A DNA stretch of 47,255 nt from Deltaproteobacteria bacterium (GTDB lineage: Bacteria; Myxococcota_A; Polyangia; JAAYKL01): contig JAUVDV010000043.1 in assembly GCA_030595125.1 (NCBI GenBank), positions 1 through 47,255 on the forward strand, read 5' to 3'. Under the pieces are notes generated by a model. It saw nothing but the letters and a program-made list of their open reading frames with translations. It searched no databases and had not been told where the DNA came from. The position numbers and the translations under genes were made by a program. Each line of letters starts with the position of its first letter. Position 1 is the stretch's first letter. Shown one piece after another: positions 9,231 through 41,700 of the stretch.

Positions 9231-10445
9231 CTACTTGTCCCCCGTTGATCTGGTGGCCTTTTTGTAGGCGTCGGTGTTGGCGGCGATCCGGTATGCTTCC
9301 CGAAACGGGACCCCCCGCTTGACCAGTTCATAGGCTTTCTCGGTGGCGTAAAGCTCATCGGTCAGCGCGGCCTTGCAGGCTTCTTCGTCGATGGTCATTC
9401 CGTCGAGAACGAACGCGGTGATGTCCAGACAACTCTTGGTGGTTTCTATGGCCGTGAAGAGCGGCTCCTTGGTCAGCTGAATGTCGCGATTGTAGCCGGA
9501 GATGAGGTTTGAGATCAGGCTCTTGACCTTGAACTCCTCGCCGAGCACCACGTGGTACTTGGCGCGAATCAACTCCAGCACGTCGGGGTTTCGCTTCTGG
9601 GGCATGATGGAGCTGCCGGTGCAGATCTTGTCCGGCAGGGTGACAAGGCCGAACTCAACCATGTTGTACATGGTCAGATCGCTCGCCAGCTTGTTGAGGT
9701 CGGCCATGATCGACGTACAGGCGCCGATGATGATCGCCTCGAACTTGCCGCGACTCATCTGGGCGTACATGGGGTTCTCCATCACCCTGGCGAATCCCAG
9801 CTCCTTCGAGGTCATCTCCCGGTCCAGATCCAGCACGGGCACCCCGAACCCGGCAGCGGTCCCCAATGGGCATTGATCTATCATTTCGACCACGCTGGCG
9901 AGGAGGCGTTTGTCGTCGTTCAATGCAGCGCGGTAGCTGCCCATCCACATCTCCACGTCGGTGGGCATGGCCCTTTGCATATGGGTGTAGCCCGGCATCT
10001 CGATCTTGCCGAACCTGGCACAGACCCGGTCCAGGGATTCTCCCAGGGCGTCGAGCAGTTCTCCGATCTCCCGCATCTGCGCCTTTTCGAAGAGGCGAAT
10101 GGCCGTGAGCACCTGGTCGTTTCTCGATCTGCCAGTGTGGATCTTCTTGCCCGCGTCGCCGCACTTTTCCGTGAGGAAGTTTTCTATTGCCGTGTGACAA
10201 TCCTCGTCCTGCTCGCGGATGGTGAATTCGTCCCGCCCGTGAAGCTCGAGGATCTCGTCTATTCCGGCCATCAGGCTGGAGAGATCGTCCTCGGTTAGCA
10301 CCCCGATGGAGTTGAGCATTCGCGCGTGTGCTCTGGAAGCCTTGCAGTCGAACTCGAGCAGATCAAGGTCCAGGATGTGATCGTTGCCGACGGTAAACTT
10401 CTCGATCCTGGTATCAAGGCTGTAGTCTTTTTTCCAGAGTTTCAT
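9231..10445 (-). CDS. argH: Argininosuccinate lyase (short C-terminus)
   Basis: This enzyme cleaves argininosuccinate to arginine and fumarate, the last step of arginine synthesis, in the cytoplasm. The fumarase/aspartase-superfamily signature GSSIMPQKRNPD is present, as are HTGRSRNDQV and MPGYTHMQRAMPT. At 404 residues it is about 50 shorter than the usual 455-465. The sequence stops soon after VPFREAYRIAANT, where E. coli ArgH continues for some 55 residues. No continuation in another frame was evident downstream. It lies four bases after argG in the same direction, so the two are co-transcribed. The ATG at 10445 follows GGAAAA inside the argG end. Confidence 0.93.
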   Translation of the reverse strand: MKLWKKDYSLDTRIEKFTVGNDHILDLDLLEFDCKASRAHARMLNSIGVLTEDDLSSLMAGIDEILELHGRDEFTIREQDEDCHTAIENFLTEKCGDAGKKIHTGRSRNDQVLTAIRLFEKAQMREIGELLDALGESLDRVCARFGKIEMPGYTHMQRAMPTDVEMWMGSYRAALNDDKRLLASVVEMIDQCPLGTAAGFGVPVLDLDREMTSKELGFARVMENPMYAQMSRGKFEAIIIGACTSIMADLNKLASDLTMYNMVEFGLVTLPDKICTGSSIMPQKRNPDVLELIRAKYHVVLGEEFKVKSLISNLISGYNRDIQLTKEPLFTAIETTKSCLDITAFVLDGMTIDEEACKAALTDELYATEKAYELVKRGVPFREAYRIAANTDAYKKATRSTGDK

Positions 10446-10449
10446 GCGA

Positions 10450-11694
10450 CTATTTTCCGTTCGAGGCCCGTTTGCGCGTGATTGCGTTGTGGGCCATCAG
10501 CCTGATGGCGTTGATCTTGATAAACCCGTCCGCGTCCTTCTGATCGAAGCCGCCCTCGACGTCCATACTGGAGAGCTCCTTGTCGTACAGGGAACTCGGA
10601 CTCTGTCTTCCCGTCACGTAGACGCCCCCCTTGTAGAGCTTGAGGAATACCTGTCCGTCGATGATATCCTGGCTCTTGTCAATTGCGGACATGAGGAACT
10701 CCATTTCAGGGGAGAACCAGAAGCCGTTGTAGATGAGCTCCGAGAGTTTGGCCGACAGCATGTCCCGCAGGCGCATCACCTCCCGATCCATGGCGATACC
10801 CTCGATGTCCCGGTGAGCGTGATAGAGGATGGTCCCTCCGGGCGTTTCGTAGATGCCTCTTGATTTGACACCGACAAAACGATTTTCAACGATATCTATT
10901 CGCCCTATGCCGTTGTCCCTGCCGAGCTCGTTGAGGTAGACGAACAGCTCCAGGGGTGTCTCCTTGATTGTGCCGTCTTCTACGTTCTCGACTCTTGTGG
11001 GGACGCCGTCCTTGAACGATATTTTGATCCGGGTGACCTTGTCCGGAGCTTTTTCGGGGGACACGGTCTTGGTGTAGATGTCTTCGGGAGCCTCGTACTC
11101 GGGCGATTCGAGAACACCCGCCTCGTGGCTGATGTGGAGCAGGTTGTCATCCTCGCTGTATGGCTTGGCTGTAGTGGTCTTGACGTCGATGCCGTGCTTC
11201 TTTGCGTAGGCGATGAGGTCGGGTCTCCCCTTGAACTCGTCGAGGAACTCCTGCATCTTCCACGGCGCGATCAACTCGACCTCGGGATCGAGAGCGTAAT
11301 ATGCCAGCTCGAACCTGACCTGATCGTTCCCCTTTCCCGTGGCGCCGTGCGACACACAGTGCGTGCCCTGTTCGTGGGCGATCTCCAGGTGACGTTTTGC
11401 GATCACGGGGCGCGCTATAGCCGTGCCCAGAAGGTATTGTCCCTCGTACACCGCGTTGGCCTTGAACATGGGATATATGTAGTCGGTGACCAGTTCTTCC
11501 TGGAGGTTCTCTATGTAGACCTTGCTCGCGCCGATGGCGAGGGCCTTCTTTTCCACCGCCTCGAAATCTTCTTCCTGACCCACGTCGGCGACGTAGGCGA
11601 TGACTTCGTAGCCTTTTTCGATGAGCCATTTCAGGATGACCGAGGTGTCCAGTCCGCCGCTGTAGGCGAGCACCACTTTCTTTGTATCGTTCAT
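10450..11694 (-). CDS. argG: Argininosuccinate synthase
   Basis: This enzyme joins citrulline and aspartate with ATP to make argininosuccinate. The 414 residues start with the nucleotide-binding PP-loop [10 protein letters not shown] and contain [16 protein letters not shown] and the [18 protein letters not shown] block, all typical of the family at normal length. GGAG lies seven bases before the ATG. It is first gene of argGH and divergent from the ArgP-like regulator at 11807. Confidence 0.97.
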
Positions 11695-11764
11695 TGTATG
11701 CTCCGCTTGTGTAATGCGATTCTTCGTTTGCCGCTTGTGCCGGACAAAGCTACTCCCTTTTCGA

Positions 11765-11779
11765 AGATTTGAAAAATCT
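11765..11779. promoter_or_regulatory. Candidate LysR-type operator between argG and the regulator gene
   Basis: AGATTT-GAA-AAATCT is a perfect 6-bp inverted repeat, and a T-N11-A pattern (T11768, A11780) overlaps it. It lies 28 bases before the regulator ATG, where an autoregulatory LysR site would be expected. The assignment rests on position and symmetry only. Confidence 0.45.
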
Positions 11780-11806
11780 ATTAAAATAAGTTATCGATGA
11801 ATACAA

Positions 11807-12670
11807 ATGAGTTTGCTGCATCCCGGAATAGAGGCGTTCATGGCGGTTGTGAGGCACTCTAGCGTAAACGGAGCCGCTGCGGAGATCGGCCTTACACAGA
11901 CCGGCGTCACCCAGAGAATACGGGCTCTGGAACGATCCCTGAACACCACGCTCTTTACGAGGTCGCGCAAGGGCATGCGCCTGACGCAGGAGGGGGAGAC
12001 ACTGCACAGGTACAGCCAGCGGGTGACCGATCTCGAGGGTGAATACCTGTCGTTCCTGCGTGACGAGAATCTGGATCAGGGAATCAGGATCAACATCACC
12101 GGACCCTCCAGCATGATGCGGTCCAGGATCATTCCGGGGGCCACGCGGATACTCCAGGAGTTCGGCAATGTGACGTTCACCTTTCATCTGGATGACGACA
12201 AGCCCGGGCTGGCCTACCTGAAATCCGGCGAAGCGCAACTGGCGGTTCTCATGCGCCACGAGGTGGTAAACGAACTCGATTCAAAGTTGCTGGCGCCCGC
12301 AAGGTATATGCTGGTGGCCTCCGCGGCCTGGAAGGGAAGGAAGCTCAGGGACATCGTTTCCAACGAGCGGATCGTCGACTTCAACGAGGCGGACGACGCC
12401 ACCTTCCGTTACCTTCAGAAACACGGGCTCTTCGACCTGGCGAGGAAAGACCGGCACCTGGCCAACAACACGGACGTCCTGGCGGCGCTCGTGGCGGACG
12501 GTCGGGGATACTCGGTTTTGTCCACTGACTTTGCGAGGCCGCTGATAAAGCAGGGCGCGATAATCGAGATCAACAAGGGCAAGAGATTGGAGCTGGAGTT
12601 TGCCCTGGCATGGTACCCCCGGCACGAGATGCCCGCGTATTTCGCCGAGTTGATCAGGGAGATAAAATAA
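11807..12670 (+). CDS. LysR-family regulator, ArgP/LysG-like
   Basis: This encodes 287 residues. The N-terminal winged helix-turn-helix (about residues 3-62) contains SSVNGAAAEIGLTQTGVTQR, with LysR-type features. The remainder is the two-lobed effector-binding domain (GIRINITGPSSMMRSRIIPG onward). The early motif LHPGIEAFMAVVRHSS and the Thr-Gln-Thr-Gly-Val-Thr-Gln-Arg recognition helix recall ArgP/LysG regulators, which sense lysine or arginine. Being divergent from argGH, it probably controls arginine synthesis; that is inferred from position. A close alternative is a generic LysR protein responding to another amino acid. Confidence 0.85.
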   Translation: MSLLHPGIEAFMAVVRHSSVNGAAAEIGLTQTGVTQRIRALERSLNTTLFTRSRKGMRLTQEGETLHRYSQRVTDLEGEYLSFLRDENLDQGIRINITGPSSMMRSRIIPGATRILQEFGNVTFTFHLDDDKPGLAYLKSGEAQLAVLMRHEVVNELDSKLLAPARYMLVASAAWKGRKLRDIVSNERIVDFNEADDATFRYLQKHGLFDLARKDRHLANNTDVLAALVADGRGYSVLSTDFARPLIKQGAIIEINKGKRLELEFALAWYPRHEMPAYFAELIREIK

Positions 12671-20774: not shown

Positions 20775-22370
20775 CTAGTCCGATATTCCGATGTAGCCGA
20801 GGGCGCCGAGCGCTTTTTTGAGATCCTCGTCCATCTCGATTTTCTTGTCGGGATTGTCCTCCAGGTGTTTTGCGAGGGCCGAGATCAGATCTACCGTCTG
20901 TGCTTCGGTCTTGCGTGACTCGAACAGATCTTGCAGTTCACCGGGATCGGCTTCCAGGTCGAACAGTTCGTATTTTTCCACTTCCCAGGAGACCGTCGGC
21001 AGATCCCCGGGTTTCGGCGGCACCTTGTTTGTATGGCCGAACATGTTGAGGGTCCTTGTCGCGGAAAGCGGGACCGGATGATGGTGCACGAGCTTCCATC
21101 GTCCTTCCCGGATCGCCTCGCGCCTCAGATCGTGAGCGTTGTACTGGCTGAACAGTTCTCGCTCCCTGCCGCTTTTCGGATCCTCGAGTGTTCGGGCTAT
21201 CGATTTTCCCACCAGATCGTGTGATCGCAAGTCGATGCCGACCAGATCGAGCAGGGTGGGTGCGACATCCAGGTGAGTGAACGGTCGATCATCGTAGGCC
21301 CCCTTGACGGGTAGCGCAGGAGAGGAGATCACAAACGGAACTCGCAGAACCGGTTCCCACATGTGGTAGGAGTGCATGAAGCAGTTGTGCTCACCGAATA
21401 TTTCCCCGTGATCCGCGGTGACGGCCACGGTGGTGGTCTCGAAGAGCCCGGCTTTTTTCAGATGAGCGATCAGTTTTTGCAGCTGGGCGTCGCCGTAGAG
21501 AACGTCGCCGTCGTAGGCTGCAACGGTCCAGGCCCGATCGCCGGGATCCATGCCTCCGGGGTATTCCCGGCGCGGGATCCTGATGGGCCAGCCCTTTGGT
21601 AGTCCCTCGAAGAACTTACCGAATCCCTTTGGGGGGCTGTAGGGGGAGTGGGGCGCGGTGAAGAAGACGAACAAAAAGAACGGTTGATCTCCATTCTTCT
21701 CGAGCCAGGATATTGCCCGCTTCGCCAGATCGGCATCATCGGCGAGCTTGTAGTTCTGGAGCACCTTCGCGTCCACGTAGGTATCGAAGCCCTGACCGAA
21801 CCCCCACTTTGCCTTGATGAGCGGATTGCCGACGAAGCCTGCGGTGCGGTATCCGGCCTTCTGGAACCGCTCGGCCAGGGTGGTGATATCCTCGCTCATG
21901 GGTGGGCAGTTGAGCTCCAGCTTGTGCTTCTTCTTGGGCAGGCCGGTCATGATGGTGGCCATACTCGGTCTGGTCCATGAACTGTTGGACACGTAGTTCG
22001 TGAGCACCAGGCCTTCTTGCGAAAGAGAGTCGATGCCCGGGCTCGTATCCCGTGAATATCCGTAGACCCCGAGGTGCCTGGCGTTGAGCGTGTCGAACAC
22101 CACCAGAACCACGGAACCGCCCTTCGTACGTTTCACGTTCAGGGGTTCTCCTGAGCGCGTCAGTCCGTCCAGTTCACCGAAGTATGCCTGTGGAACCGGC
22201 AACGGCGGGAGCGGCGCGATTTCGACGGGAGACTCTTTGGGAGTTTCCGTGGGCGGCGCCTGCGCCGGCGTCTGCTGCCTGTCGTTGCTGCGCGATTCAC
22301 TGGGGGAGTCGGATGAGCAGGATAGCACGAGTGTCGTGATTGCAAGTGCGATGTGAATACGAAGGATCAT
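20775..22370 (-). CDS. Sulfatase-superfamily lipoprotein
   Basis: This encodes 531 residues. The signal peptide ends in LVLSC (Cys18), followed by a Ser/Pro-rich spacer. The alkaline-phosphatase-fold hydrolase core starts at SVVLVVFDTLNARHLGVYGY; the second metal site is in VTADHGEIFGEH. Where classical sulfatases carry Cys/Ser-x-Pro-Ser-Arg, the sequence reads T133-R-P-S-M, so formylglycine formation is unlikely and Thr133 is the candidate nucleophile. A phosphatase or phosphotransferase action on envelope substrates is equally possible. It starts seven bases after the upstream sulfatase-like gene and is co-transcribed with it. Confidence 0.85.
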   Translation of the reverse strand: MILRIHIALAITTLVLSCSSDSPSESRSNDRQQTPAQAPPTETPKESPVEIAPLPPLPVPQAYFGELDGLTRSGEPLNVKRTKGGSVVLVVFDTLNARHLGVYGYSRDTSPGIDSLSQEGLVLTNYVSNSSWTRPSMATIMTGLPKKKHKLELNCPPMSEDITTLAERFQKAGYRTAGFVGNPLIKAKWGFGQGFDTYVDAKVLQNYKLADDADLAKRAISWLEKNGDQPFFLFVFFTAPHSPYSPPKGFGKFFEGLPKGWPIRIPRREYPGGMDPGDRAWTVAAYDGDVLYGDAQLQKLIAHLKKAGLFETTTVAVTADHGEIFGEHNCFMHSYHMWEPVLRVPFVISSPALPVKGAYDDRPFTHLDVAPTLLDLVGIDLRSHDLVGKSIARTLEDPKSGRERELFSQYNAHDLRREAIREGRWKLVHHHPVPLSATRTLNMFGHTNKVPPKPGDLPTVSWEVEKYELFDLEADPGELQDLFESRKTEAQTVDLISALAKHLEDNPDKKIEMDEDLKKALGALGYIGISD

Positions 22371-22377
22371 TTTCTGG

Positions 22378-24753
22378 CTAGTCCTTCACGTGAAAGCGGA
22401 TGATTCTTGTGTCGTGGATCGCACGGTAGGCGGCGGAGGTGATGCGCGCCACATAGCTCTCGCCCGCCTCGAAGGTGCTCCCGGGAACCGTCGAGAAGGT
22501 AGCCTCCCGGTCACCTGTGATCCGCTTGATCTCGGCGTGAATTCTCTTTTTGCCGGGACCGTAGATCTCCAGCTTGACCCGTGCGCCGCCGGACTTGTAC
22601 ACGCGGGCCCAGCCGCTCAACGACTGCCCGCGGGCGAGGGTCAGGTTGCCGCCGGTGATACACCCGGAGCGATTGCTCCCCGGGCATATGGCCGCGGACT
22701 CCAGGCGGACCCGGGTGCCGGCGAAGGTCTCCGTGCGTTTCTGGCGCGCGATCTTTTCGATGTCCCTTGAGGTCAGCCCGGTGGCGTCCATTCGGTCCTT
22801 GTAGATGCGCGCAACTTCGATCCTCCAGTCCTTTATGATCTTCCTGAAGGTCGCGACCTTGTCCTTGTTGTCCTTCGCGATATTTTCCTGCTCGGTCGGA
22901 TCGATCGACAGGTCGTAGAGCTCGGCCTTGCCGCTTCCCCTGTCGACGTTGAATTTGAAATTGCCGTCCCGAACGCCGAACTGACGCCTCGAATAACAGA
23001 AGATCATCGGTTCCTCGCGGTCCCTGGAAATGAGGTTTCGACCGTTGATGTCCAGGTCCGCGCTCATGCCCAGTATGTCGAGGAGTGTCGGCAAGAGATC
23101 GATGTTTGAGCCCAGACGGGGGCTCTGGAGCGGAGTGCCCAGGACCTTCCGGTTGTGCAGGAGGAGGAAGATGTGAGAGTCCTCCTCGTAACAGTACTCC
23201 GCGTGGATGTGATTTCTCGGGTGGAGATCCCCGAAGGCCTCCCCGTGATCCGGAACGACGATGAAGAGCGTATTTTCGGCCACGCCCAGCTTTTGCAGCC
23301 CCTCGTAAAACCGTTGCACCGACATGTCCGCGTAACGAAGCGAGGCTCTGAATCGGGCGCGAGGGAGGTAATCTCCCCAGTCCTCGTCGTAGAGGGCCCG
23401 GTGTTGATCAGGGACCCTGAAAGGGTGGTGCGGGTAGAGCGCGTTGTAATTGAGGTAGAACGGCTTGCCCGAATCCCTGGCGGTCTCGATCCACTTGAGG
23501 GCCTGGTCGATCATGACCTCCTCGTCCACGCCCCAGTATGCTCCCATGCCGGCGGGTCGATCCTCTGCGGGAAGGAGGTTCTTGTCCATGAAGACATCAT
23601 ATGGTCGCGTGACGATGAAGCTGTCGAGTGAATCAAACAGCGAGTCGGAGCTGGTGAAGAAGGCGGTGGCGTACCCGTCGTCATGCAGGATATCCACCAG
23701 GGTCCGGACCTCCCCCTGCGAGTACTTCACCAGGTCGCTCGTCTTGTCCATGTAAGGATAGAAACCCGTCATGGCGGAAATGAAAGAGCGTGTGCTGGCG
23801 GCGACCCCCGGGTAGTAGTTGGTGAACAGGAGGCTGTCCTTTGCGAGCTTCTTGAGAAAAGGGGTGGTGTCGTACTGGTTCGCCGGGTCAAATGAAGAAT
23901 CCCGGTACGCGGTTGATTCCATGAGATACCAGACGACGTTGAGCTTGCCGGTATGTGCCCTGATCGCGGCTCGAACGGGCGCCAGTTCGTCGGTTCCTAT
24001 CCCCGCGTCCGGCTCCGATTTCTTGACGGTCGGCGGGGTTTTTATCGGTGGAGCTGTCACAGCCTGAGCCACTTCCGCCTCTTCGGCCTGAACGTGAAGG
24101 TAGGACGATACGTAGGTTACCGGGAAGGTACGGTTCAGGTCGAGCTGCTCTGTGAACATGACCAGGCCGATGGTCACGGCGATGTATGCCGCCGCGAACA
24201 GCGCAGACCGCAGCTTGCGTCTGACCACAAAGTTTGCGAGGGCTCGGATCGGCCCGGGGCGGTAGGGCAGGGCGATCAGCGCGACACAGGCCAGCGCAAC
24301 GCCGGCTTCGATGACGAAGAAAGTGTCCAGGGAGTCTGTGATGGAACTCCAGGCGCGGGTTGCATCATGATTTTCGGCGAAGAGTACATAATCGAAGTGG
24401 GTAAAATAGTGTTTAAAGGCCGCCTGGTTGAGGGCGAGAAAGAACAGGTACATGCCCAGCATGGCGATCCAGAGTGCTCGCGGTATCAGGGTTCGCCATA
24501 GCGCGCCGAGGATCAGCGCAAAGATCATTGCGATGACCAGCTCCTCGCCGAGGATGAAGGGCAGGGAGAAGGGCGGACCCGGGAAATCAAAACTCGCGGC
24601 CCCCGTTTTTCTGAGGGTGATGAAATTGGCCACGCGCAACAAAAGGGAATAACCGAGGTACAGGACCACGAAGTACACTGCCGACAGCATCGCGCCGGAG
24701 GCGGCTGGCTCCAACAAATTCCGTCTGTTATCGTTCAAATTTCGGGGACACAT
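22378..24753 (-). CDS. Membrane-anchored sulfatase/LtaS-like phosphotransferase
   Basis: This encodes 791 residues. About five membrane helices occupy the first 200 residues (for example LSAVYFVVLYLGYSLLL and LWIAMLGMYLFFLALN), followed by a periplasmic catalytic domain. That domain has the metal-site acid in WYLMEST (E279), a candidate nucleophile in AASTRSFISAMTG (S320/T321) and VVPDHGEAFGDLHPRNHIHA. The layout is that of lipoteichoic-acid-synthase-like and opgB/mdoB-type enzymes that move phospho-groups onto glycans or lipids. A C-terminal region of about 120 residues (from FAGTRVRLESAAICPG) looks like an extra beta-sandwich. No clear ribosome-binding site precedes ATG 24753; a start at M22 is possible. 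Confidence 0.82.
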   Translation of the reverse strand: MCPRNLNDNRRNLLEPAASGAMLSAVYFVVLYLGYSLLLRVANFITLRKTGAASFDFPGPPFSLPFILGEELVIAMIFALILGALWRTLIPRALWIAMLGMYLFFLALNQAAFKHYFTHFDYVLFAENHDATRAWSSITDSLDTFFVIEAGVALACVALIALPYRPGPIRALANFVVRRKLRSALFAAAYIAVTIGLVMFTEQLDLNRTFPVTYVSSYLHVQAEEAEVAQAVTAPPIKTPPTVKKSEPDAGIGTDELAPVRAAIRAHTGKLNVVWYLMESTAYRDSSFDPANQYDTTPFLKKLAKDSLLFTNYYPGVAASTRSFISAMTGFYPYMDKTSDLVKYSQGEVRTLVDILHDDGYATAFFTSSDSLFDSLDSFIVTRPYDVFMDKNLLPAEDRPAGMGAYWGVDEEVMIDQALKWIETARDSGKPFYLNYNALYPHHPFRVPDQHRALYDEDWGDYLPRARFRASLRYADMSVQRFYEGLQKLGVAENTLFIVVPDHGEAFGDLHPRNHIHAEYCYEEDSHIFLLLHNRKVLGTPLQSPRLGSNIDLLPTLLDILGMSADLDINGRNLISRDREEPMIFCYSRRQFGVRDGNFKFNVDRGSGKAELYDLSIDPTEQENIAKDNKDKVATFRKIIKDWRIEVARIYKDRMDATGLTSRDIEKIARQKRTETFAGTRVRLESAAICPGSNRSGCITGGNLTLARGQSLSGWARVYKSGGARVKLEIYGPGKKRIHAEIKRITGDREATFSTVPGSTFEAGESYVARITSAAYRAIHDTRIIRFHVKD

Positions 24754-28047: not shown

Positions 28048-29109
28048 ATGACCAACCTTGCCGCGCGCGTACAGAGGATCCCGCGCGACTGTGTGTGGGA
28101 GATCACCGAGGCCTGCAACCTGCGCTGTTTACACTGTATGGTCTCGGCCGGTGAACGCGCCGCCGGTGAGTTGACCACCGCAGAGGCGCTCTCACTGGTC
28201 GACGACCTGGTCGAGGCTGGTTGTACAAGCGCCTGCCTCACCGGAGGCGAGCCGCTGGTGCGCAAGGATTGGCCGCAGATCGCCCGGCGCCTCGCGCAGG
28301 GTGGCGTCGAGACACGGATGACAACCAACGGCCTGCGCGTCGACGAGCGGCAGATCGAGATCATGCAGGAGGCAGGCCTGACCACGATCACAGTTTCGCT
28401 GGACGGACTGCGCGAGGTGCATGACGAGATCCGCGTGGCCCCGTCCGGCTCGGCCGAGTCCCGCTACGACCGGGCGATCCGCGCGATCGAGCTGCTCTGC
28501 GCGTCGTCGCTCAAGGTCAAGGTGCTGACCCAGATCCACAAGCGCAACATCGACGATCTCGATCGGATGCACGAGTTGGTGGCCGGGCTGGGAGTTGATG
28601 ATTGGCAGCTGCAGATCGCCGTGCCGGCCGGTCGGCTGCTCGATCTGCGTTACGAGTATCTTATCGAGCCCCGGCAGATACCCGCCTTGCTGGACAGGCT
28701 GGCTGCGTTCGTGGCGGCCGGGCGGGTGCGCATCGGTGTGGCCGACAACATTGGCTATTACAGCCGGCATGAGCCGATACTACGCGGCGCGCAGCGGGGC
28801 AAGTCGACCTTCTTCGCCGGGTGCATGGCCGGGGTGCGGATGGTCAACGTGACCGCGAGCGGCGACGTGCGCGGATGCCACGCACTGCCTCGTGAGTTCA
28901 TCGCGGGCAACGTGCGGGAAAAGCCGTTCGCCGAGATCTGGGCCGACCGCGCCGGGTTTGCTTACAACACGGATTGGCGTGAGGACCAGCTGACCGGCGG
29001 CTGCGCCACGTGCGATTTCCGCCGAGTCTGCAGGGCCGGCTGCACTGCGATGGCCTACCTGGTTACCGGCACCGTCCACGACAATCCCTACTGTGTTCAG
29101 CGTGTGTAG
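28048..29109 (+). CDS. Radical SAM/SPASM-domain enzyme
   Basis: This encodes 353 residues. The radical SAM cluster motif is C23-x3-C27-x2-C30 in EACNLRCLHC, with the SAM-binding CLTGGEPLV at about 63-71. The C-terminal SPASM region has the cysteine series FAGCMAG, VRGCHAL, GGCATC, RRVCRAGC and PYC, enough for two auxiliary [4Fe-4S] clusters. Such enzymes modify peptides or proteins (thioether, carbon-carbon or epimer formation) and are usually encoded next to their substrate. The upstream gene, 15 bp away in the same operon, is the obvious candidate. No RiPP transporter, protease or separate RRE protein is visible nearby. The chemistry cannot be read from the sequence. Confidence 0.92.
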   Translation: MTNLAARVQRIPRDCVWEITEACNLRCLHCMVSAGERAAGELTTAEALSLVDDLVEAGCTSACLTGGEPLVRKDWPQIARRLAQGGVETRMTTNGLRVDERQIEIMQEAGLTTITVSLDGLREVHDEIRVAPSGSAESRYDRAIRAIELLCASSLKVKVLTQIHKRNIDDLDRMHELVAGLGVDDWQLQIAVPAGRLLDLRYEYLIEPRQIPALLDRLAAFVAAGRVRIGVADNIGYYSRHEPILRGAQRGKSTFFAGCMAGVRMVNVTASGDVRGCHALPREFIAGNVREKPFAEIWADRAGFAYNTDWREDQLTGGCATCDFRRVCRAGCTAMAYLVTGTVHDNPYCVQRV

Positions 29110-30439: not shown

Positions 30440-31036
30440 ATGAGTAACAAACCAACCCGTGCAGCCCTGTACGCCAGGGTCAGCACCGACGATCAGAAAC
30501 ACGATCTCCAGCTCGACGCTTTGCGTCAGGTTGCCGCGCAGAGGGATTGGTCGGTGACCGAGTATCTGGACAAGGCATCCGGGTCCGGTGTCAAGCTAAC
30601 GGCGCGGGACCAGATGATGAAAGATGTACGCAAAGGCAAAATTGAAGTGGTTGTCGTGTGGCGGTATGACCGGTTTGCGCGGTCAGTCAAGGACTTGGTT
30701 GAGGCCCTTGATACGTTTCGCACTAACGGAGTTCAATTTGTTTCTTTGCAAGATGGCGCCGATACAACCACACTTGGCGGCGAGTTGCTATTTCATATAA
30801 TGGCTGGGATCGCCCAGTTTGAGAAACAACTGCTCAGTGAAAGAGTCAGGGCAGGTCTGGCAGCGGCCCGGAAGCGCGGCCAGGTGCTAGGCCGCCCAAA
30901 CGTCGCCGTAGACGTTCAACGGGCGCTCAGGCTACATAGCGAGGGTAGATCGTGGCGTACTGTTGCCAAGGTTCTCAACGTTGATAAGACAACTCTCCGC
31001 AGGGCGATAAGGGCTATCGAGGCGGAAACAGCCTGA
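30440..31036 (+). CDS. Serine recombinase (resolvase/invertase type)
   Basis: This encodes 198 residues. The catalytic domain has the nucleophilic serine S15 in LYARVSTDDQ, the arginines of WRYDRFARS and the segment GELLFHIMAGIAQFEKQLLSE, as in Tn3/Hin-type enzymes. A C-terminal helix-turn-helix (SWRTVAKVLNVDKTTLRRAI) binds DNA. Length is normal for small resolvases and invertases, so it may resolve or invert DNA rather than integrate it. It sits at the left end of the tRNA-bounded element. Confidence 0.92.
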   Translation: MSNKPTRAALYARVSTDDQKHDLQLDALRQVAAQRDWSVTEYLDKASGSGVKLTARDQMMKDVRKGKIEVVVVWRYDRFARSVKDLVEALDTFRTNGVQFVSLQDGADTTTLGGELLFHIMAGIAQFEKQLLSERVRAGLAAARKRGQVLGRPNVAVDVQRALRLHSEGRSWRTVAKVLNVDKTTLRRAIRAIEAETA

Positions 31037-34266: not shown

Positions 34267-35184
34267 TCAACTTCTGCGGGTGAAACATGAACTCGATAAC
34301 CTCGCGTCCCGCCGAATGTCCACAGTCTGTTCGACGAACTTCGACGTGATCCTGTCGCGGTAACCGCTCGCCCTCATCTCGGCGTTCCAACCCAGGGTGG
34401 TGTTGAGGCGCTCCATGGCGAGTTCCCGCAGGTATTTTCCCACCATCGAGGCCACCGAAATCGGCAGGTGAATGGAGTCCCCATCGCGGATAAAGGAGAT
34501 CTCCCCGATGCCGCCCACGCGGTAGGTGCTTACCTCCCGAGATTCCCGGATCACCGCGTCGACCGACAGATTCATGTTCTCGAACCACCGCTCGTAGCGC
34601 ATGGTGGATCCGATCTTTCCACACAGGACTATCGCCTCGCCACGCCCCGAGATGGTCAGTTTCATGGCCAGTTTCATCATGAGCTCGAAGTCCAGGCGCA
34701 TCTTGTTCGAGTCGGGTTTTTGAAGCTCCAGGTTGAGCGCCCCGGGGCACGCCATGAACGATCGGACGGACCCTGGTTCGACTCCTGCCTTGTTGAAACG
34801 ATCCTTCACCGTTGCGGGGATTGTGTTCGAGTTCGGCTTTGCCCACAGGGGGAGGTCGATCCCCGCCGTCTCGCATGGTACAGGTCTGGCGCCGGCCGGA
34901 CAGGGAACTGGGAAGGGGAGGGGGAGGCAGACGTCCTCGACCAGGTCGGCGAAAGTCCCGGCCCGACAACCGAGCAGCTCGATCCAGGAGAGGATGGCGC
35001 GCTCCCCGGCGGCGGGGGATCGGCGGGAGAACAAGATCTTGGAATCGGCGGCGGGAAGATCGGGTCCCGCGAGGCGCGAGAAACGCTCGACGTCGTAGTC
35101 GTCGGATTCGAAAACGGTTCCCGTCACCACCAGCGGTCCCAGCAGCGGTCCCAGACCGTTCTCATCGATTCCAATCACCAGCAT
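34267..35184 (-). CDS. RNase HII-like protein with an altered active site
   Basis: This encodes 305 residues. The N-terminus IGIDENGLGPLLGPLVVTG parallels the RNase HII motif GIDEAGRGPLAGP (D7, E8), DSK at 47-49 parallels DSKKL, and DGDSIHLPISVASMVGKYLR (234-253) parallels the last catalytic block. The block that normally reads VLxDGN appears as IVLCGK (185-190), so the third carboxylate seems to be Cys188. A long insert sits between about 60 and 160. It may be a divergent or inactive homologue rather than the housekeeping rnhB. It begins 15 bp after the beta-helix lipoprotein gene on the same strand. Confidence 0.65.
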   Translation of the reverse strand: MLVIGIDENGLGPLLGPLVVTGTVFESDDYDVERFSRLAGPDLPAADSKILFSRRSPAAGERAILSWIELLGCRAGTFADLVEDVCLPLPFPVPCPAGARPVPCETAGIDLPLWAKPNSNTIPATVKDRFNKAGVEPGSVRSFMACPGALNLELQKPDSNKMRLDFELMMKLAMKLTISGRGEAIVLCGKIGSTMRYERWFENMNLSVDAVIRESREVSTYRVGGIGEISFIRDGDSIHLPISVASMVGKYLRELAMERLNTTLGWNAEMRASGYRDRITSKFVEQTVDIRRDARLSSSCFTRRS

Positions 35185-36874: not shown

Positions 36875-37972
36875 TCACCTCGCTTGCTTCGGTCTTTTCA
36901 GATTCATCAGCCCGATGACAACCAGGATCACCAGCCCGGCGATCACGGTGATCTTGCCCGGTAACGTGGCAGCTTTTATCAGGCTGAAGTTGTGGGCAAG
37001 GGCTGCTCCGGTGAGCATTCCGAATACGGTCAACACGGAGTCCGTGTTTCCGCTGCCGGCGAGCACCAGCTGCCGAAATGGACAGCCGCCGAGCAAGATC
37101 GCCGCCAGCCCCACCATCGCCATCCCCAGGAAGTTCCAGAGATGGGCGCTGTGTGCGACGGGTTGGTCGGCAAACCCGAGGTGGAAGTCCCCCATGACAA
37201 GATTGCCGATGAGCACGACGGCGAATATCACCAGAACGCCGGAAAGCAGATGCCAGCTGCGCATCAGGAAAATATCGCGGATGCCCCCGGCAAAGCACAG
37301 CCGCGAGCGCTGGCCGAGGAATCCGATCACCAGGCCGGCGATTAGCGAGACGGCGATCCCTGTAGCAAGCCCCACTGGCGAGCCATCACCTCCGGGATAT
37401 CCTTTGTTCATGAAGAAGATCGGACCGCCCTCGGTGAAGGACGGCCTGAGCACGAGAAACAGCAGCAGGAGCACCATAAGCGCCGGCAGCACGAGCCCTT
37501 CCGCCCGCCGCTGTCCCTTGGCGCGTGGCAATACAAAACCGAAGCGCAGCAGCCATACGCCCGCCGCGATGCCCCCGACGAACCCAAACACCGCAACCAG
37601 GGCGTTGAGATCACCGCCGGCCAGTCGCAGCACCATTCGCACCGGGCAACCCAGGAACACCAGTGCGCCGAGCATCATGAATACGCCGAGCATGAACCGC
37701 GTGACCGGCGCTGAACCGCCTCTGGGCTTGAACTCACCATGGATGACCGCCGCCGTAAATGCACCCAACGCAATCCCAATGATCTCGGGGCGAATGTATT
37801 GGATGGGCGCCGTGATGTTCCAGTTGAACAGCCCCAGAGCTCCCACGATATCGCGCTGGAAGCATGCAATGCAGAAGCCCATGTTTGCCGGGTTGCCGAG
37901 CGACATGAGGACAAGCGCAGCTATGCCCAGTGCCGCTCCAGCTATCATTACCCACAGTGTGTCCTTGCGCAT
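36875..37972 (-). CDS. yedE: YedE-type (YeeE/YedE family) membrane transporter
   Basis: This encodes 365 residues with about ten hydrophobic helices. The conserved cysteine motifs of the selenium-linked YedE group are present: MGFCIACFQRDIVGALG, FLGCPVRMVLRLAGGD, RSRLCFAGGIRDIFLMR and LGGCPFRQLVLAGSGN. YeeE relatives import thiosulfate through such cysteines; YedE is associated with selenium metabolism by co-occurrence. ATG 37972 is chosen because AAGGAG lies seven bases before. It is divergent from the HTH/PBP regulator gene across a 317-bp region. Confidence 0.88.
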   Translation of the reverse strand: MRKDTLWVMIAGAALGIAALVLMSLGNPANMGFCIACFQRDIVGALGLFNWNITAPIQYIRPEIIGIALGAFTAAVIHGEFKPRGGSAPVTRFMLGVFMMLGALVFLGCPVRMVLRLAGGDLNALVAVFGFVGGIAAGVWLLRFGFVLPRAKGQRRAEGLVLPALMVLLLLFLVLRPSFTEGGPIFFMNKGYPGGDGSPVGLATGIAVSLIAGLVIGFLGQRSRLCFAGGIRDIFLMRSWHLLSGVLVIFAVVLIGNLVMGDFHLGFADQPVAHSAHLWNFLGMAMVGLAAILLGGCPFRQLVLAGSGNTDSVLTVFGMLTGAALAHNFSLIKAATLPGKITVIAGLVILVVIGLMNLKRPKQAR

Positions 37973-38155
37973 CAACTTCTCCTTGCAGCCTGGCGGGACA
38001 GGCTCCAGGCCTCCTTGGGCTGCAGTTGTCAGTCGTGTTTGTGTATTACTAGCAACAACCAACCCGATAGATCAAACAGGAATATCCGATATGTAACCGT
38101 GCGACTATTGGTTCCGCCGTGCTGTCCGCGACAACCTGGACACCGCCTTGTCCCG

Positions 38156-38175
38156 AAAAATGACTCTGGCACCCT
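38156..38175. repeat. 20-bp direct repeat, left copy
   Basis: AAAAATGACTCTGGCACCCT here is identical to 41681-41700 in the same orientation. The two copies bracket the regulator, diheme protein and porin genes. Similar text (GACTCTGGTGCCCT) appears at 46910-46923, suggesting a dispersed REP-like motif. Confidence 0.7.
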
Positions 38176-38188
38176 TGGGAAATGAGAA

Positions 38189-38218
38189 GGTTATTTTCGG
38201 TTATTTTTGGTTATAATT
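38189..38218. promoter_or_regulatory. Three 10-bp phased repeats before the HTH/PBP regulator
   Basis: GGTTATTTTC, GGTTATTTTT and GGTTATAATT stand head to tail at exactly one helical turn. TATAAT at 38212-38217 is inside the last unit. They lie about 70-100 bases upstream of the regulator start in the region divergent from yedE. They are candidate operator sites. The rest of 37973-38289 shows no gene. Confidence 0.5.
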
Positions 38219-38289
38219 TTCTTGCACCGTCTGTTTGGTCTGTTAGTATACTTGCAAATTCGGGAGCTTACAGAAGGGGAGGGTTGACA

Positions 38290-39216
38290 GTGGAATACAT
38301 GACAACAAAGGAGATCGCCCGCTATCTGCATCTCAACGAGAAGAAGGTCTATGCGATGGTCGCGGACGGGCAGCTTCCGGCCTCGCGTATCTCCGGAAAG
38401 TGGTTGTTCCCACGCGAACTCGTGGATCGGTGGATAGAGCAGAACACGATCTATCCCGGCTCCGGCATTATCGATTCCATTCTGGAGGATATGCTTATCA
38501 TGCAGGGGAGCGACGATTGGCTGCTCTCTCGGGTGACGCAGGACTTCACACGGAAGAACAATATACCAGTGGTCACAGCGACTGTTGGAAGCATGGCGGG
38601 GTTGAAGGCAGTCAGCAGCGGCAAGGCGCACATGGCGGGCTGCCATATCGCGAGTGATCAGGCCAGGGAGTTGTCAGCGGGCTCGGGCAAGGGGTGCTAC
38701 ATGATGGACCTCTTCTCCCGCCGGCAAGGACTCATCTTCGACCGATCGAGGCATCCGGGGATCACCGGGCTTCAAAGCGTCGAGGATCTCGGGCTTTGCT
38801 TCGCGGAGCGTCAGCAACTCTCGGGCACGTTTCAACTGGTGCGTCGCCTCTTCGATGACCTGGGGGTTCCCGATCCTTCGCGCGAGACCGCAGGCGAGAG
38901 CCGGACCATGGGGCCCTGTTCTTCCCATATGGAGGTCGCGCTGGCCGTCCGGACGGGAAGGGCCGACGCCGGGGTCGGCATTCAGGTCGCAGCGGACCTG
39001 TGCGGTCTAGATTTCATCCCACTTCACACCGAGCCCTACCGGATAGCAATTCCCACCCAGTTCTTTTCCCGTCCGCACATGGTGGGTTTCCTGGACTTCA
39101 TCCTTGGCGAGTTGAAGTCCGTGTCCGCCTCGGGTGCGGCCGGATATGAGTTTGATGATCTGGGACGAATCGACGTTCCAAAAACAATTGAGAAGGAGGA
39201 AATTTCCAATGCGTAA
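38290..39216 (+). CDS. HTH (excisionase-type) regulator with periplasmic-binding-protein-like domain
   Basis: This encodes 308 residues. An N-terminal MerR/Xis-type helix-turn-helix is seen (MTTKEIARYLHLNEKKVYAM, SGKWLFPRELVDRWI). The C-terminal PBP-like domain (from VVTATVGSMAGLKAVSSGKA; AHMAGCHIA; VALAVRTGRADAGVG) resembles those sensing molybdate, tungstate or other oxyanions. GTG 38290 is preferred because GGGGAGGG lies six bases before; ATG 38299 is the alternative. Its stop overlaps the start of the diheme gene, so it is co-transcribed with the genes it probably controls. Confidence 0.82.
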   Translation: MEYMTTKEIARYLHLNEKKVYAMVADGQLPASRISGKWLFPRELVDRWIEQNTIYPGSGIIDSILEDMLIMQGSDDWLLSRVTQDFTRKNNIPVVTATVGSMAGLKAVSSGKAHMAGCHIASDQARELSAGSGKGCYMMDLFSRRQGLIFDRSRHPGITGLQSVEDLGLCFAERQQLSGTFQLVRRLFDDLGVPDPSRETAGESRTMGPCSSHMEVALAVRTGRADAGVGIQVAADLCGLDFIPLHTEPYRIAIPTQFFSRPHMVGFLDFILGELKSVSASGAAGYEFDDLGRIDVPKTIEKEEISNA

Positions 39217-40438
39217 CATCGAAACTAAAACAATCTTTTGGACCATATTGATGCTGATCGGCATCTGGACGGTGGGTGTGGTGTCGTGTTCATCCGACAG
39301 TGATGATCAAGACCTGATTTCGTCGAATTCATACAAGGGACATGAGAACGATCTCGACGCCAACAACTTCGTGTCGGTCTACCCGAATACCCTGGGAACC
39401 AGGCTCGACGATTGCCAGACGTGTCACAAGGGGGGGACCTTCTCCTACGAGTCTTACGACGGGATAAAGACCGCGTTCAAGAACTCCTGTGACTTTTGTC
39501 ATCTGATCATCCATCCATCCGAGGATTTCATCGAGGCTCAACCGATAACGTATGCGGAGACCCTCAACCCGTACGGCGCGGCGTACATGGCGGCCGGAAG
39601 GACCAGGGATGCGCTCAACAGTATCACCGCTGACGACAGCGACAGCGACAGTTTTTCCAACAAGGAGGAGATAGCTGATCTCAAGTATCCGGGCGATCCC
39701 GCCAGCCAACCCGGGCAGGAGGTTGCGCCCATGATCACGTTCACAAAGGCCCAGCTCGAGGGCCTGGCCTCTCATGAGCAGTTCATGCTGGCGAACTCTC
39801 ACAAACAGGAGTTCGACAACTATGTCTCGTATGTCGGCGTGACCGTGGAGATCCTTCTGGTGGAAGCGGGCGTGGATATCACGGACTCGGCCATTCAGGG
39901 GATCACGGTCATCGCTCCCGACGGCTACATGAAGGATTTCACCACCGAACAGATTCAAAAGACCTACCCGACCGGGCTCTATTACTCGGGGCTGGACACG
40001 GCCACCCTCGGAACCGAGTGCGGGTTTGTCATGTACCCCGACAACCTGCCTTCGGATCTGACCGGCGACGGTGATATTGCAGGGGATCAGCTTCTCATTC
40101 TGGCCTACGAGCGGGACGGACTCCCCCTCGATCCGAGCAGCCTCGATATAACGGAGGGCACAATCGACGGCGAGGGCCCCTTCCGGGTAGTGCTTCCCCA
40201 GTCGGTTCCCGACGAGCCGGATCGGGGCTCCATGTTTTCCCCTACCGACTGCAACGATGGGTACGATTACGATGACAGCAAGGATCATAACGCCGGAGAT
40301 ATGGTGCGTGGCGTGATAGCAATTCGGGTAAACCCCCTGCCCGAGGGATACGAGGACTTCGATCATTACAACGGTGGCTGGTCGTACATTGAAAGTGAAT
40401 CCATCATTATATACGGGCACGGAATCGATGCCGACTGA
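39209..40438 (+). CDS. Diheme c-type cytochrome lipoprotein, GEGP-motif type
   Basis: This encodes 409 residues. The signal peptide ends in VGVVSC (Cys27). Two heme-binding motifs, CQTCH (69-73) and CDFCH (94-98), precede a larger domain holding the phrase GEGPFRVVLPQ, which is typical of GEGP-motif diheme proteins. It probably carries electrons in the periplasm or at the outer membrane; the acceptor is unknown. AAGGAGG precedes ATG 39209, which overlaps the regulator gene by eight bases. The porin gene overlaps its end by 11 bases, so the three are tightly coupled. Confidence 0.85.
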   Translation: MRNIETKTIFWTILMLIGIWTVGVVSCSSDSDDQDLISSNSYKGHENDLDANNFVSVYPNTLGTRLDDCQTCHKGGTFSYESYDGIKTAFKNSCDFCHLIIHPSEDFIEAQPITYAETLNPYGAAYMAAGRTRDALNSITADDSDSDSFSNKEEIADLKYPGDPASQPGQEVAPMITFTKAQLEGLASHEQFMLANSHKQEFDNYVSYVGVTVEILLVEAGVDITDSAIQGITVIAPDGYMKDFTTEQIQKTYPTGLYYSGLDTATLGTECGFVMYPDNLPSDLTGDGDIAGDQLLILAYERDGLPLDPSSLDITEGTIDGEGPFRVVLPQSVPDEPDRGSMFSPTDCNDGYDYDDSKDHNAGDMVRGVIAIRVNPLPEGYEDFDHYNGGWSYIESESIIIYGHGIDAD

Positions 40439-41666
40439 TACGGGCGGTCGCCCATTCTCGCGACTCGCTCCTGTTTTACTCGCGGTCCTCGCGGCGGTGT
40501 TGCTCACCTTCATGGATGAGCCGGCGTCTGCCTACGAGGTCAACGATCACCTGCAGGTGACCGGCCTCGCCCAGATGTGGATCACCCTCTATGAGCAGAT
40601 GGAGGAGGCGGAAGGGCTGCACCAGCATCCCAGCGGGGACGAGGCGACGAACGCTACCAGCGGTTTCAGCCTTCACCGGGCGAGGATCGGCGCGTATACT
40701 TTCTGGTTCGATCGGCATGTTGAGATCTCCGCCCAGATGAGACTCGAGCGAAACCCGGGCCTTCTGGATGTCTACGCCGGACTCCATCCGGCCCGGTGGC
40801 TGTCAATTTATTTCGGCCAGTTCAAGATCCCGAGTTCGTACGAGGCCATGGTCAACGCCCAGGATCTGGACTTCATCCTGCGCACAAACATCGCCCGCGA
40901 TCTGGCCGACTATTCCCTGTCCAGGACAACTTACCGATCATCGCTCTTCTACGGGGTCAATTCCTACTACAGGGATATGGGCCTGGGTTTGAAGGGGGAC
41001 ATCGATACGGGCTTCTGTGCCCTGCGCTACTTTTTGATGGTGGGCAACGGGCTCGGGGCAAACCTGTTCATCAGCGGCGCTGCGAGGAGAGAGTATATCG
41101 TTACCAACAAGGGTCAGTTCTTCTACGGGGCGCGCCTGGAGATCGCCGAAATCCTGGACACGGTGTCAGTGGGCGGACACTTCAACTACAACAAGCACGA
41201 CAACATCGTCTTCAACAGCGGGCGTGTGGTCTACGATCTCGATCGGCTGAGCTATTCGGGGGATCTCGAGATCGACGTGTCGCTGATCGGCCTGAGAGCG
41301 GTGGGGATGTACGGCGCCGGCCTCATTGACGACGACTACGACGATGACGGCAGAACAGATCTTTTGTATTTCGGATGGGAGTCCCGTTTGCTGTGGACGT
41401 TGAATCCTCTCATCTCCGTATTCGCGGATTCGGCTTTCTGGGAGAGGCATTTCTTCGAGATCGGCGCTCGTTTCGACAGATCTGTTGGTGATTGGAACGA
41501 AACCGGCGCCGAGGTTACTCAAAACAACTGGACCTTCGCGGTGAGCTATCTCTTCGAGGATCTCCTGAAAGTACAGCTGGAATACATGCGCAAACTGACG
41601 GACGATCCATCCATGCCCGAGCTGGACGACGATATCCTTTTCATTCAGATCCAGGGAGCGCTCTGA
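40428..41666 (+). CDS. Outer-membrane porin (beta-barrel)
   Basis: This encodes 412 residues. The signal peptide ends around EPASA. The mature protein has alternating amphipathic strands with aromatic girdles (LHRARIGAYTFWFDRHVEIS, RWLSIYFGQFKIPSSYEA, FAVSYLFEDLLKVQLEYMRK) and resembles phosphate-selective porin O/P-type barrels. The start ATG 40428 lies inside the diheme gene. Being coupled to a heme lipoprotein, it could form a conduit or a substrate channel for the respiratory function of the operon; this is inference. Confidence 0.8.
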   Translation: MPTDTGGRPFSRLAPVLLAVLAAVLLTFMDEPASAYEVNDHLQVTGLAQMWITLYEQMEEAEGLHQHPSGDEATNATSGFSLHRARIGAYTFWFDRHVEISAQMRLERNPGLLDVYAGLHPARWLSIYFGQFKIPSSYEAMVNAQDLDFILRTNIARDLADYSLSRTTYRSSLFYGVNSYYRDMGLGLKGDIDTGFCALRYFLMVGNGLGANLFISGAARREYIVTNKGQFFYGARLEIAEILDTVSVGGHFNYNKHDNIVFNSGRVVYDLDRLSYSGDLEIDVSLIGLRAVGMYGAGLIDDDYDDDGRTDLLYFGWESRLLWTLNPLISVFADSAFWERHFFEIGARFDRSVGDWNETGAEVTQNNWTFAVSYLFEDLLKVQLEYMRKLTDDPSMPELDDDILFIQIQGAL

Positions 41667-41680
41667 TCTTGAAATGAGCC

Positions 41681-41700
41681 AAAAATGACTCTGGCACCCT
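41681..41700. repeat. 20-bp direct repeat, right copy
   Basis: This copy is identical to 38156-38175. It lies 14 bases after the porin stop codon. Confidence 0.7.

Follow-up and report, generated by a model that had tools for sequence, protein, structure and literature searches.

We analyzed a stretch of 47,255 nucleotides (hereafter the window; contig JAUVDV010000043.1, positions 1 to 47,255 of the forward strand, assembly GCA_030595125.1) from a Deltaproteobacteria bacterium of the GTDB lineage Myxococcota_A; Polyangia; JAAYKL01, in which genes for a one-component regulator, a GEGP-motif diheme protein and an outer-membrane porin follow one another, with a yedE gene divergent from them. The explanation we prefer, to which we assign a probability of roughly 0.55, is that these three genes constitute a module controlled by molybdate or tungstate, and that the diheme protein, once secreted, acts together with a cofactor or ligand of the pterin type and has an anion porin beside it. 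This explanation is based on the gene neighborhoods of the diheme family, a conserved repeat element in front of the operon and the predicted fold of the diheme protein.

Genes and Operon

A preliminary description of this DNA, made from the letters and translations, had reported four genes, and all four have been confirmed in place by the open reading frames of the window and by family profiles; the names given there agree with TIGR04112 for yedE, HTH_17 and PBP_like for the regulator, NF041762 for the diheme protein and Porin_O_P for the porin. The regulator gene (38290-39216, + strand) belongs to an open frame at 38182-39216 and has its likely start at GTG 38290 or ATG 38299. The diheme gene (39209-40438, +) starts at ATG 39209 and encodes 409 amino acids (aa); its product matches NF041762 (diheme_GEGP) with 456.6 bits against a cut-off of 300. 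The porin gene (40428-41666, +) starts at ATG 40428 and matches Porin_O_P (PF07396) with 30.0 bits against a cut-off of 20.9. Because the regulator and diheme genes overlap by 8 bp and the diheme and porin genes by 11 bp, the three genes very probably form one operon, as the preliminary description had proposed from their arrangement.

Relatives of the operon were collected by a scan of the genomes of GTDB species in which aligned diheme sequences served as the query. The resulting 45 homologous loci, with flanks reaching at most 10 kb to either side (shorter at contig ends), span Myxococcota, Eisenbacteria, Krumholzibacteriota, Acidobacteria/Aminicenantes, Planctomycetota, Poribacteria and others, while no diheme relative was found in plasmid records. 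The loci cannot be treated as independent, since L071-L074, L076 and L077 belong to one clade, and L045 has the same genes as L046, and L009 the same as L010. The pairing of diheme and porin genes is conserved, with a porin homologue beside the diheme gene in 25/45 loci. In L075 the two are read as one 674-aa frame (9920-11944, +), which is either a fusion or an assembly error.

The operon is flanked by an exact 20-bp direct repeat, AAAAATGACTCTGGCACCCT, at 38156-38175 and 41681-41700. A transposition footprint was considered and set aside, since the genome contains five copies of an 18-bp core of the repeat and degenerate versions lie upstream of the operon in sister species; for the same reason it seems to be a short dispersed repeat.

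Molybdenum and Tungsten Genes in the Neighborhoods

Genes for tungstate transport, for the molybdenum cofactor (Moco), or encoding a periplasmic-binding-protein-like (PBP) domain together with either a helix-turn-helix (HTH) domain or MoeA were found in 23 of the 45 loci and in 1 of 80 control stretches (Fisher p 1e-11, relatedness ignored). The controls were taken from 40 of the same genomes; they start at contig ends, and many of the contigs are short. The loci counted comprise 14 with Tup, Moa or Moe genes at E ≤ 1e-15 and ten with PBP-domain genes (nine HTH-PBP regulators of the window's kind and one MoeA-PBP fusion). At the looser E ≤ 1e-5 the count of core molybdenum/tungsten genes becomes 17/45 vs 2/80, which takes in generic radical S-adenosylmethionine (SAM) proteins (L037, L043) and an ABC permease (L060) that the stricter cut drops. 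The TupA and TupB queries were taken from L077, itself one of the loci counted, and 11/45 loci pass 1e-15 when these queries are left out.

Several arrangements can be given as examples. In L077 the diheme gene is divergent from a run with TupABC-like transport genes, MoeA, MoaC, a MOSC-type protein, MoaA and MoaB/MogA, and in L009/L010 a ModE-type HTH gene (TIGR00637, 86.0 bits, just below the cut-off of 98.5) lies with MoaC/MoaB upstream of the diheme gene. TupA is found downstream in L045/L046 and in the neighborhood in L051, L052 and L056, and L070 has a MoeA-PBP fusion directly upstream of the diheme gene and another MoeA nearby. Loci of this kind are spread over several well separated clades of the protein tree. 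At the level of whole genomes, the MoaA domain is above its cut-off in 34/40 and 5/6 genomes, and a search of the genome of one sister species (G012), which is 86% complete, did not find it. Taken together, the diheme neighborhoods point to molybdate or tungstate, as far as gene content can tell.

Regulator and Promoter Element

The regulator consists of an excisionase-type HTH_17 domain (PF12728, 55.8 bits) and a PBP_like domain (PF12727, 129.8 bits), both above their cut-offs, and a PDB sequence search with it gave no match. A literature search found no paper on molybdate-responsive regulators of this HTH-PBP type. The molybdopterin biosynthesis model NF011068 matches the C-terminal region of the regulator with its PBP portion (119.9 bits, below the cut-off of 534). 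The regulator shares the PF12727 domain with the MoeA-PBP fusion encoded next to the diheme gene of L070, and is 30% identical to the PBP portion of that fusion. The PBP domain fused to MoeA has been proposed to serve tungsten, and TupA co-occurs in 86% of cases (PMC11733289). Judging from the neighborhoods only, we predict that the PBP domain of the regulator is a molybdate/tungstate sensor, which would bind one of these anions and so read its level. A regulator with the same two domains fused to a DUF2478 nucleotide-binding domain is encoded in L044 (8190-9734, -), divergent from the diheme gene.

Upstream of the regulator gene, at 38190-38224 (+), three direct repeats with a 10-bp period, GTTATTTTCG GTTATTTTTG GTTATAATTTTCTTG, together span 35 bp. 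This element abuts a -35-like TTGCAC, with TATACT about 19 bases further on; these two hexamers were picked out by eye, and a consensus promoter scan found no promoter. The element was first recognised by eye in several loci and then scored with a matrix. It is present at 36 bits or more (full matrix) in 9/45 loci and in the window, and leave-one-out scores are 35.2-46.8 bits vs a maximum of 17.7-18.9 bits in the controls (80 stretches, 1.0 Mb). Two loci that were never part of the matrix, L047 and L078, score 36.6 and 36.8 bits. The element precedes an HTH-PBP gene in seven cases (the window counted) and stands directly before the diheme gene in three (L040, L041 and L043). It was not found in five other stretches of the window's own genome that were examined.

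We infer that this element is the operator, or activator site, read by the HTH domain of the regulator. BldC, a MerR-like winged-HTH protein, occupies direct repeats of 9 bp in head-to-tail order (PMC5859096), and by this precedent the HTH domain of the regulator is well suited to reading the element. BldC likewise has a small excisionase/MerR-like HTH, and its repeats, like those of the window, recur about once per turn of the helix (every 9 bp vs every 10 bp). Unlike the window regulator, BldC has no ligand-binding domain, and binding by the former is a prediction. In the proposed mechanism, the HTH domains would occupy the three 10-bp repeats head to tail just upstream of the -35 position, and thereby set transcription of the regulator's own gene, the diheme gene and the porin gene.

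Fold and Hemes of the Diheme Protein

The diheme protein has a signal peptide with a cysteine at the lipobox position (Cys27), two CxxCH motifs (residues 69-73 and 94-98) and a C-terminal domain at about residues 172-377. Besides its score above the NF041762 cut-off, the window protein has both CxxCH motifs, as does each of the 43 homologues that were parsed; the alignment used below left out L050 (masked letters), L075 (the single frame mentioned above), and L079 and L081 (truncated). A cysteine occupies the lipobox column in 32/42 sequences, although a stricter lipobox pattern matches only 19/42. We propose that the protein is secreted, and that most members are probably lipoproteins.

An AlphaFold2 model built with 42 sequences has a mean predicted local distance difference test score (pLDDT) of 89.6 and a predicted TM-score (pTM) of 0.84. 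In a Foldseek search with this model the best match was PruR (7kos_B, E 5.6e-4, the sole match below 1e-3), followed by sulfite oxidases (6y0k, 1.5e-3). In VIA comparisons of residues 172-377, sulfite oxidase 3hbg (Z 12.9, 132 residues, 2.9 Å) and PruR 7kom (Z 12.4, 122 residues, 2.3 Å) are tied. A profile-profile comparison with 26 sulfite-oxidase-family proteins gave a probability of 95.4 and a pairwise E of 1.9e-8 (89.7 and 85.5 with two subsets). PF00174 matches 20/42 family members weakly (best E 8.8e-4), and matches neither the window protein nor any other protein of the window genome; the domain of the diheme protein would therefore be missed by this family model alone. On the strength of these comparisons, the C-terminal domain is predicted to have the sulfite-oxidase/PruR pterin-binding fold. 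The preliminary description had noted that no catalytic reductase was visible, which needs correction insofar as the diheme protein carries this domain, although without the metal-ligating cysteine.

Exactly four histidines are invariant in the family: H45, H360 and the one within each CxxCH motif. Each heme is probably held by two histidines, which would use all four. Cys271 and Cys348 occur together in 27/42 sequences and are both missing in the other 15, and this joint presence or absence suggests a disulfide. According to the mechanism we propose, the exported protein would acquire two hemes, and electrons would move, in one direction or the other, between these and a cofactor or ligand of the pterin type in the fold domain.

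Porin and Its Possible Roles

The porin has no NCBIfam match. Its AlphaFold2 model (pLDDT 80.9) has 16 strands, and Foldseek matched it to chitoporin, Omp32, OprP and OprO. PF07396 and 16 strands are shared with the phosphate/pyrophosphate porins OprP and OprO, but the score is 30 bits only and general porins score equally well. By its predicted structure the barrel belongs with anion or general porins and not with conduit barrels. The porin may admit a small anion, either the substrate or a metal oxyanion, across the outer membrane.

The preliminary description had also suggested that the operon passes electrons across the outer membrane, and the encoding of a heme lipoprotein and a barrel side by side would suit a conduit in which the diheme protein is plugged into the barrel. 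MtrAB-type conduits have a multiheme chain through a large barrel, whereas the module in the window has two CxxCH motifs and a 16-strand model that matches diffusion porins. To our knowledge, two hemes on one domain cannot span an MtrAB-type membrane barrel. The conduit was not borne out, and we regard it as the least probable of all explanations considered here.

The porin bears on metal acquisition as well. The diheme protein and porin, induced by shortage, might capture molybdate, tungstate or their thio-forms at the outer membrane, or mobilise them there by reduction, for TupABC/ModABC, which would account for Tup genes in the neighborhood, an OprP/OprO-like anion porin and a regulator with a PBP domain. 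Nevertheless, Moco biosynthesis genes are as frequent nearby as transport genes, several Tup-linked loci (L071-L074, L076 and L077) have no porin homologue, and the sulfite-oxidase fold is that of a cofactor site; we consider this role rather unlikely.

YedE and Selenium

The yedE gene (36875-38062, minus strand, likely start ATG 37972) encodes a true member of the putative selenium transporter family TIGR04112 (424.4 bits, cut-off 200) and is divergent from the operon. Both facts speak for the earlier proposal that YedE and the operon together handle a selenium or sulfur oxyanion. Nevertheless, YedE is above the TIGR04112 cut-off in only 9/46 genomes carrying the diheme gene; no YedE relative was found in the 45 loci as far as their flanks reach, and no match in either sister species (86% and 95% complete genomes). 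One of these (G012, L007) has a different lipoprotein gene upstream of the regulator, and the other (G013, L006) matches L007 there, with the yedE side of the window not aligning. Such a lack of co-occurrence in other genomes is what the preliminary description itself had named as counting against its proposal. Since yedE is not adjacent in other loci and was not found in the sister species, it looks like an unrelated, chance neighbor and not part of the module, and a selenium or sulfur module with YedE is very improbable. From the same proposal, the sensing of an oxyanion by the PBP domain is probably correct, while the neighborhoods point to molybdate or tungstate in place of selenium or sulfur.

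A formate dehydrogenase-like molybdopterin gene on another contig (L218 1752, G000:C92) has an in-frame TGA in a selenocysteine-like context, and was matched with one TGA in both congeners as well. We read this TGA as a putative selenocysteine codon, cysteine or selenocysteine being expected there in other sequences. Selenium use in the genome therefore needs no diheme operon, and this gene is a likelier client for yedE.

Weighing of the Cofactor Reading

Several observations weigh against control by molybdate or tungstate and a pterin-type cofactor. In the DNA covered, 22/45 loci have no molybdenum/tungsten gene, some of them because contigs end, and no porin homologue was found in 20/45. The element is absent from 36/45 loci, including L042 and L048, where the HTH-PBP gene is downstream of the porin gene, and L044. 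TupA-like proteins (E ≤ 0.001) occur in 34/46 genomes with the diheme gene vs 42/188 sampled from the window's phylum, which speaks for the link to tungsten, but different phyla are compared here; the proteins are below the NCBI TupA cut-off in every genome, and none was found in the window genome or its two congeners. In this genus the link to molybdenum or tungsten thus rests on the regulator, MoaA and molybdopterin enzymes. As for the diheme protein, the molybdenum-ligating cysteine is not conserved: within residues 188-205 a cysteine occurs only at position 195, in 2/42 sequences, with Leu at 194 and Asn at 196 in 42/42. H45 and H360 could be ligands of the cofactor instead of the hemes. 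Finally, a motif like that for twin-arginine translocation (Tat) was not found in the 42 N-termini.

A canonical Moco enzyme was considered, and is weakened by the missing cysteine. Holo-molybdoenzymes are normally exported by Tat, so that the lack of a Tat-like motif also makes a classical Moco enzyme unlikely.

The same absence of a ligand cysteine agrees with a PruR-like sensor. The diheme protein would then be a periplasmic, redox-gated pterin-binding receptor and not an enzyme, with hemes reporting redox state and the pterin reporting Moco or pterin status. PruR is the top Foldseek match and the top, though weak, PDB sequence match (7kom, E 0.082); PruR is periplasmic, has a sulfite-oxidase-type fold without the molybdenum-ligand cysteine and binds reduced pterin (PMC13259868). 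On the other hand, no DcpA-type or kinase partner adjoins in the window, where the neighbor on the far side of the operon is an FHA-domain protein by profile; the protein has 409 aa and two hemes vs about 170 aa for PruR; and a sensor of free pterin would not be expected to go together with tungstate transport. We therefore treat the sensor as a possible, clearly secondary, explanation.

More speculative is a new class of enzyme, a secreted diheme molybdenum- or tungsten-pterin oxidoreductase of the sulfite-oxidase fold without a cysteine ligand, whose operon would be switched by molybdate or tungstate through head-to-tail binding of the regulator to the three repeats. Its metal might be held by the invariant N196, by another residue or by no protein ligand. 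With c-type hemes and no Tat-like signal, such a protein would have to receive its cofactor outside the cytoplasm. We consider this proposal doubtful in its full form.

Other Genes in the Window

A radical SAM/SPASM protein at 28048-29109 (+) is nearest to peptide-maturase models, below their cut-offs. Two adjacent sulfatase-superfamily proteins are encoded at 20775-24753 (-) and a serine recombinase-like protein of 198 aa at 30440-31036 (+). A 305-aa ribonuclease HII-like protein is encoded at 34267-35184 (-), below the NCBIfam cut-off; since its family match is split in two stretches, the sequence suggests a long insertion.

Comparison with Known Systems

The window protein is a full-length member of the NF041762 GEGP diheme family, a model that provides a name without a stated function, and the literature searched describes neither its fold nor a regulon or operator. 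For this widely spread family a fold is now predicted, together with a probable regulon and an operator that can be tested, and the selenium/sulfur hypothesis for this locus is redirected to molybdenum and tungsten.

Like PruR, the diheme protein combines a sulfite-oxidase-type fold with the lack of the ligand cysteine. PruR, however, is a stand-alone domain of about 170 aa beside a DcpA or DTB partner gene, whereas the diheme protein has about 409 aa, carries two c-type hemes and has no such partner in the window, and its relatives have a Moco/tungstate neighborhood. Residues 172-377 likewise share the fold of the sulfite oxidase family (SUOX, SorT, SoxC and MsrP/YedY), and the N-terminal stretch around the invariant H45 aligns next to residues 140-141 of chicken sulfite oxidase. 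The diheme protein differs from this family in having no conserved ligand cysteine, hemes fused N-terminally and no Tat-like signal that we could find. It thus presents a case of the sulfite-oxidase fold joined to hemes with the metal-binding cysteine lost, and should it bind a pterin or metal-pterin, this would have to be loaded in the periplasm, an unusual route for molybdoenzymes. The fold, the molybdenum/tungsten association and the element of this already named family did not appear in the literature searched; compared with the known systems, the module is a variant of a known fold and not a new kind of system.

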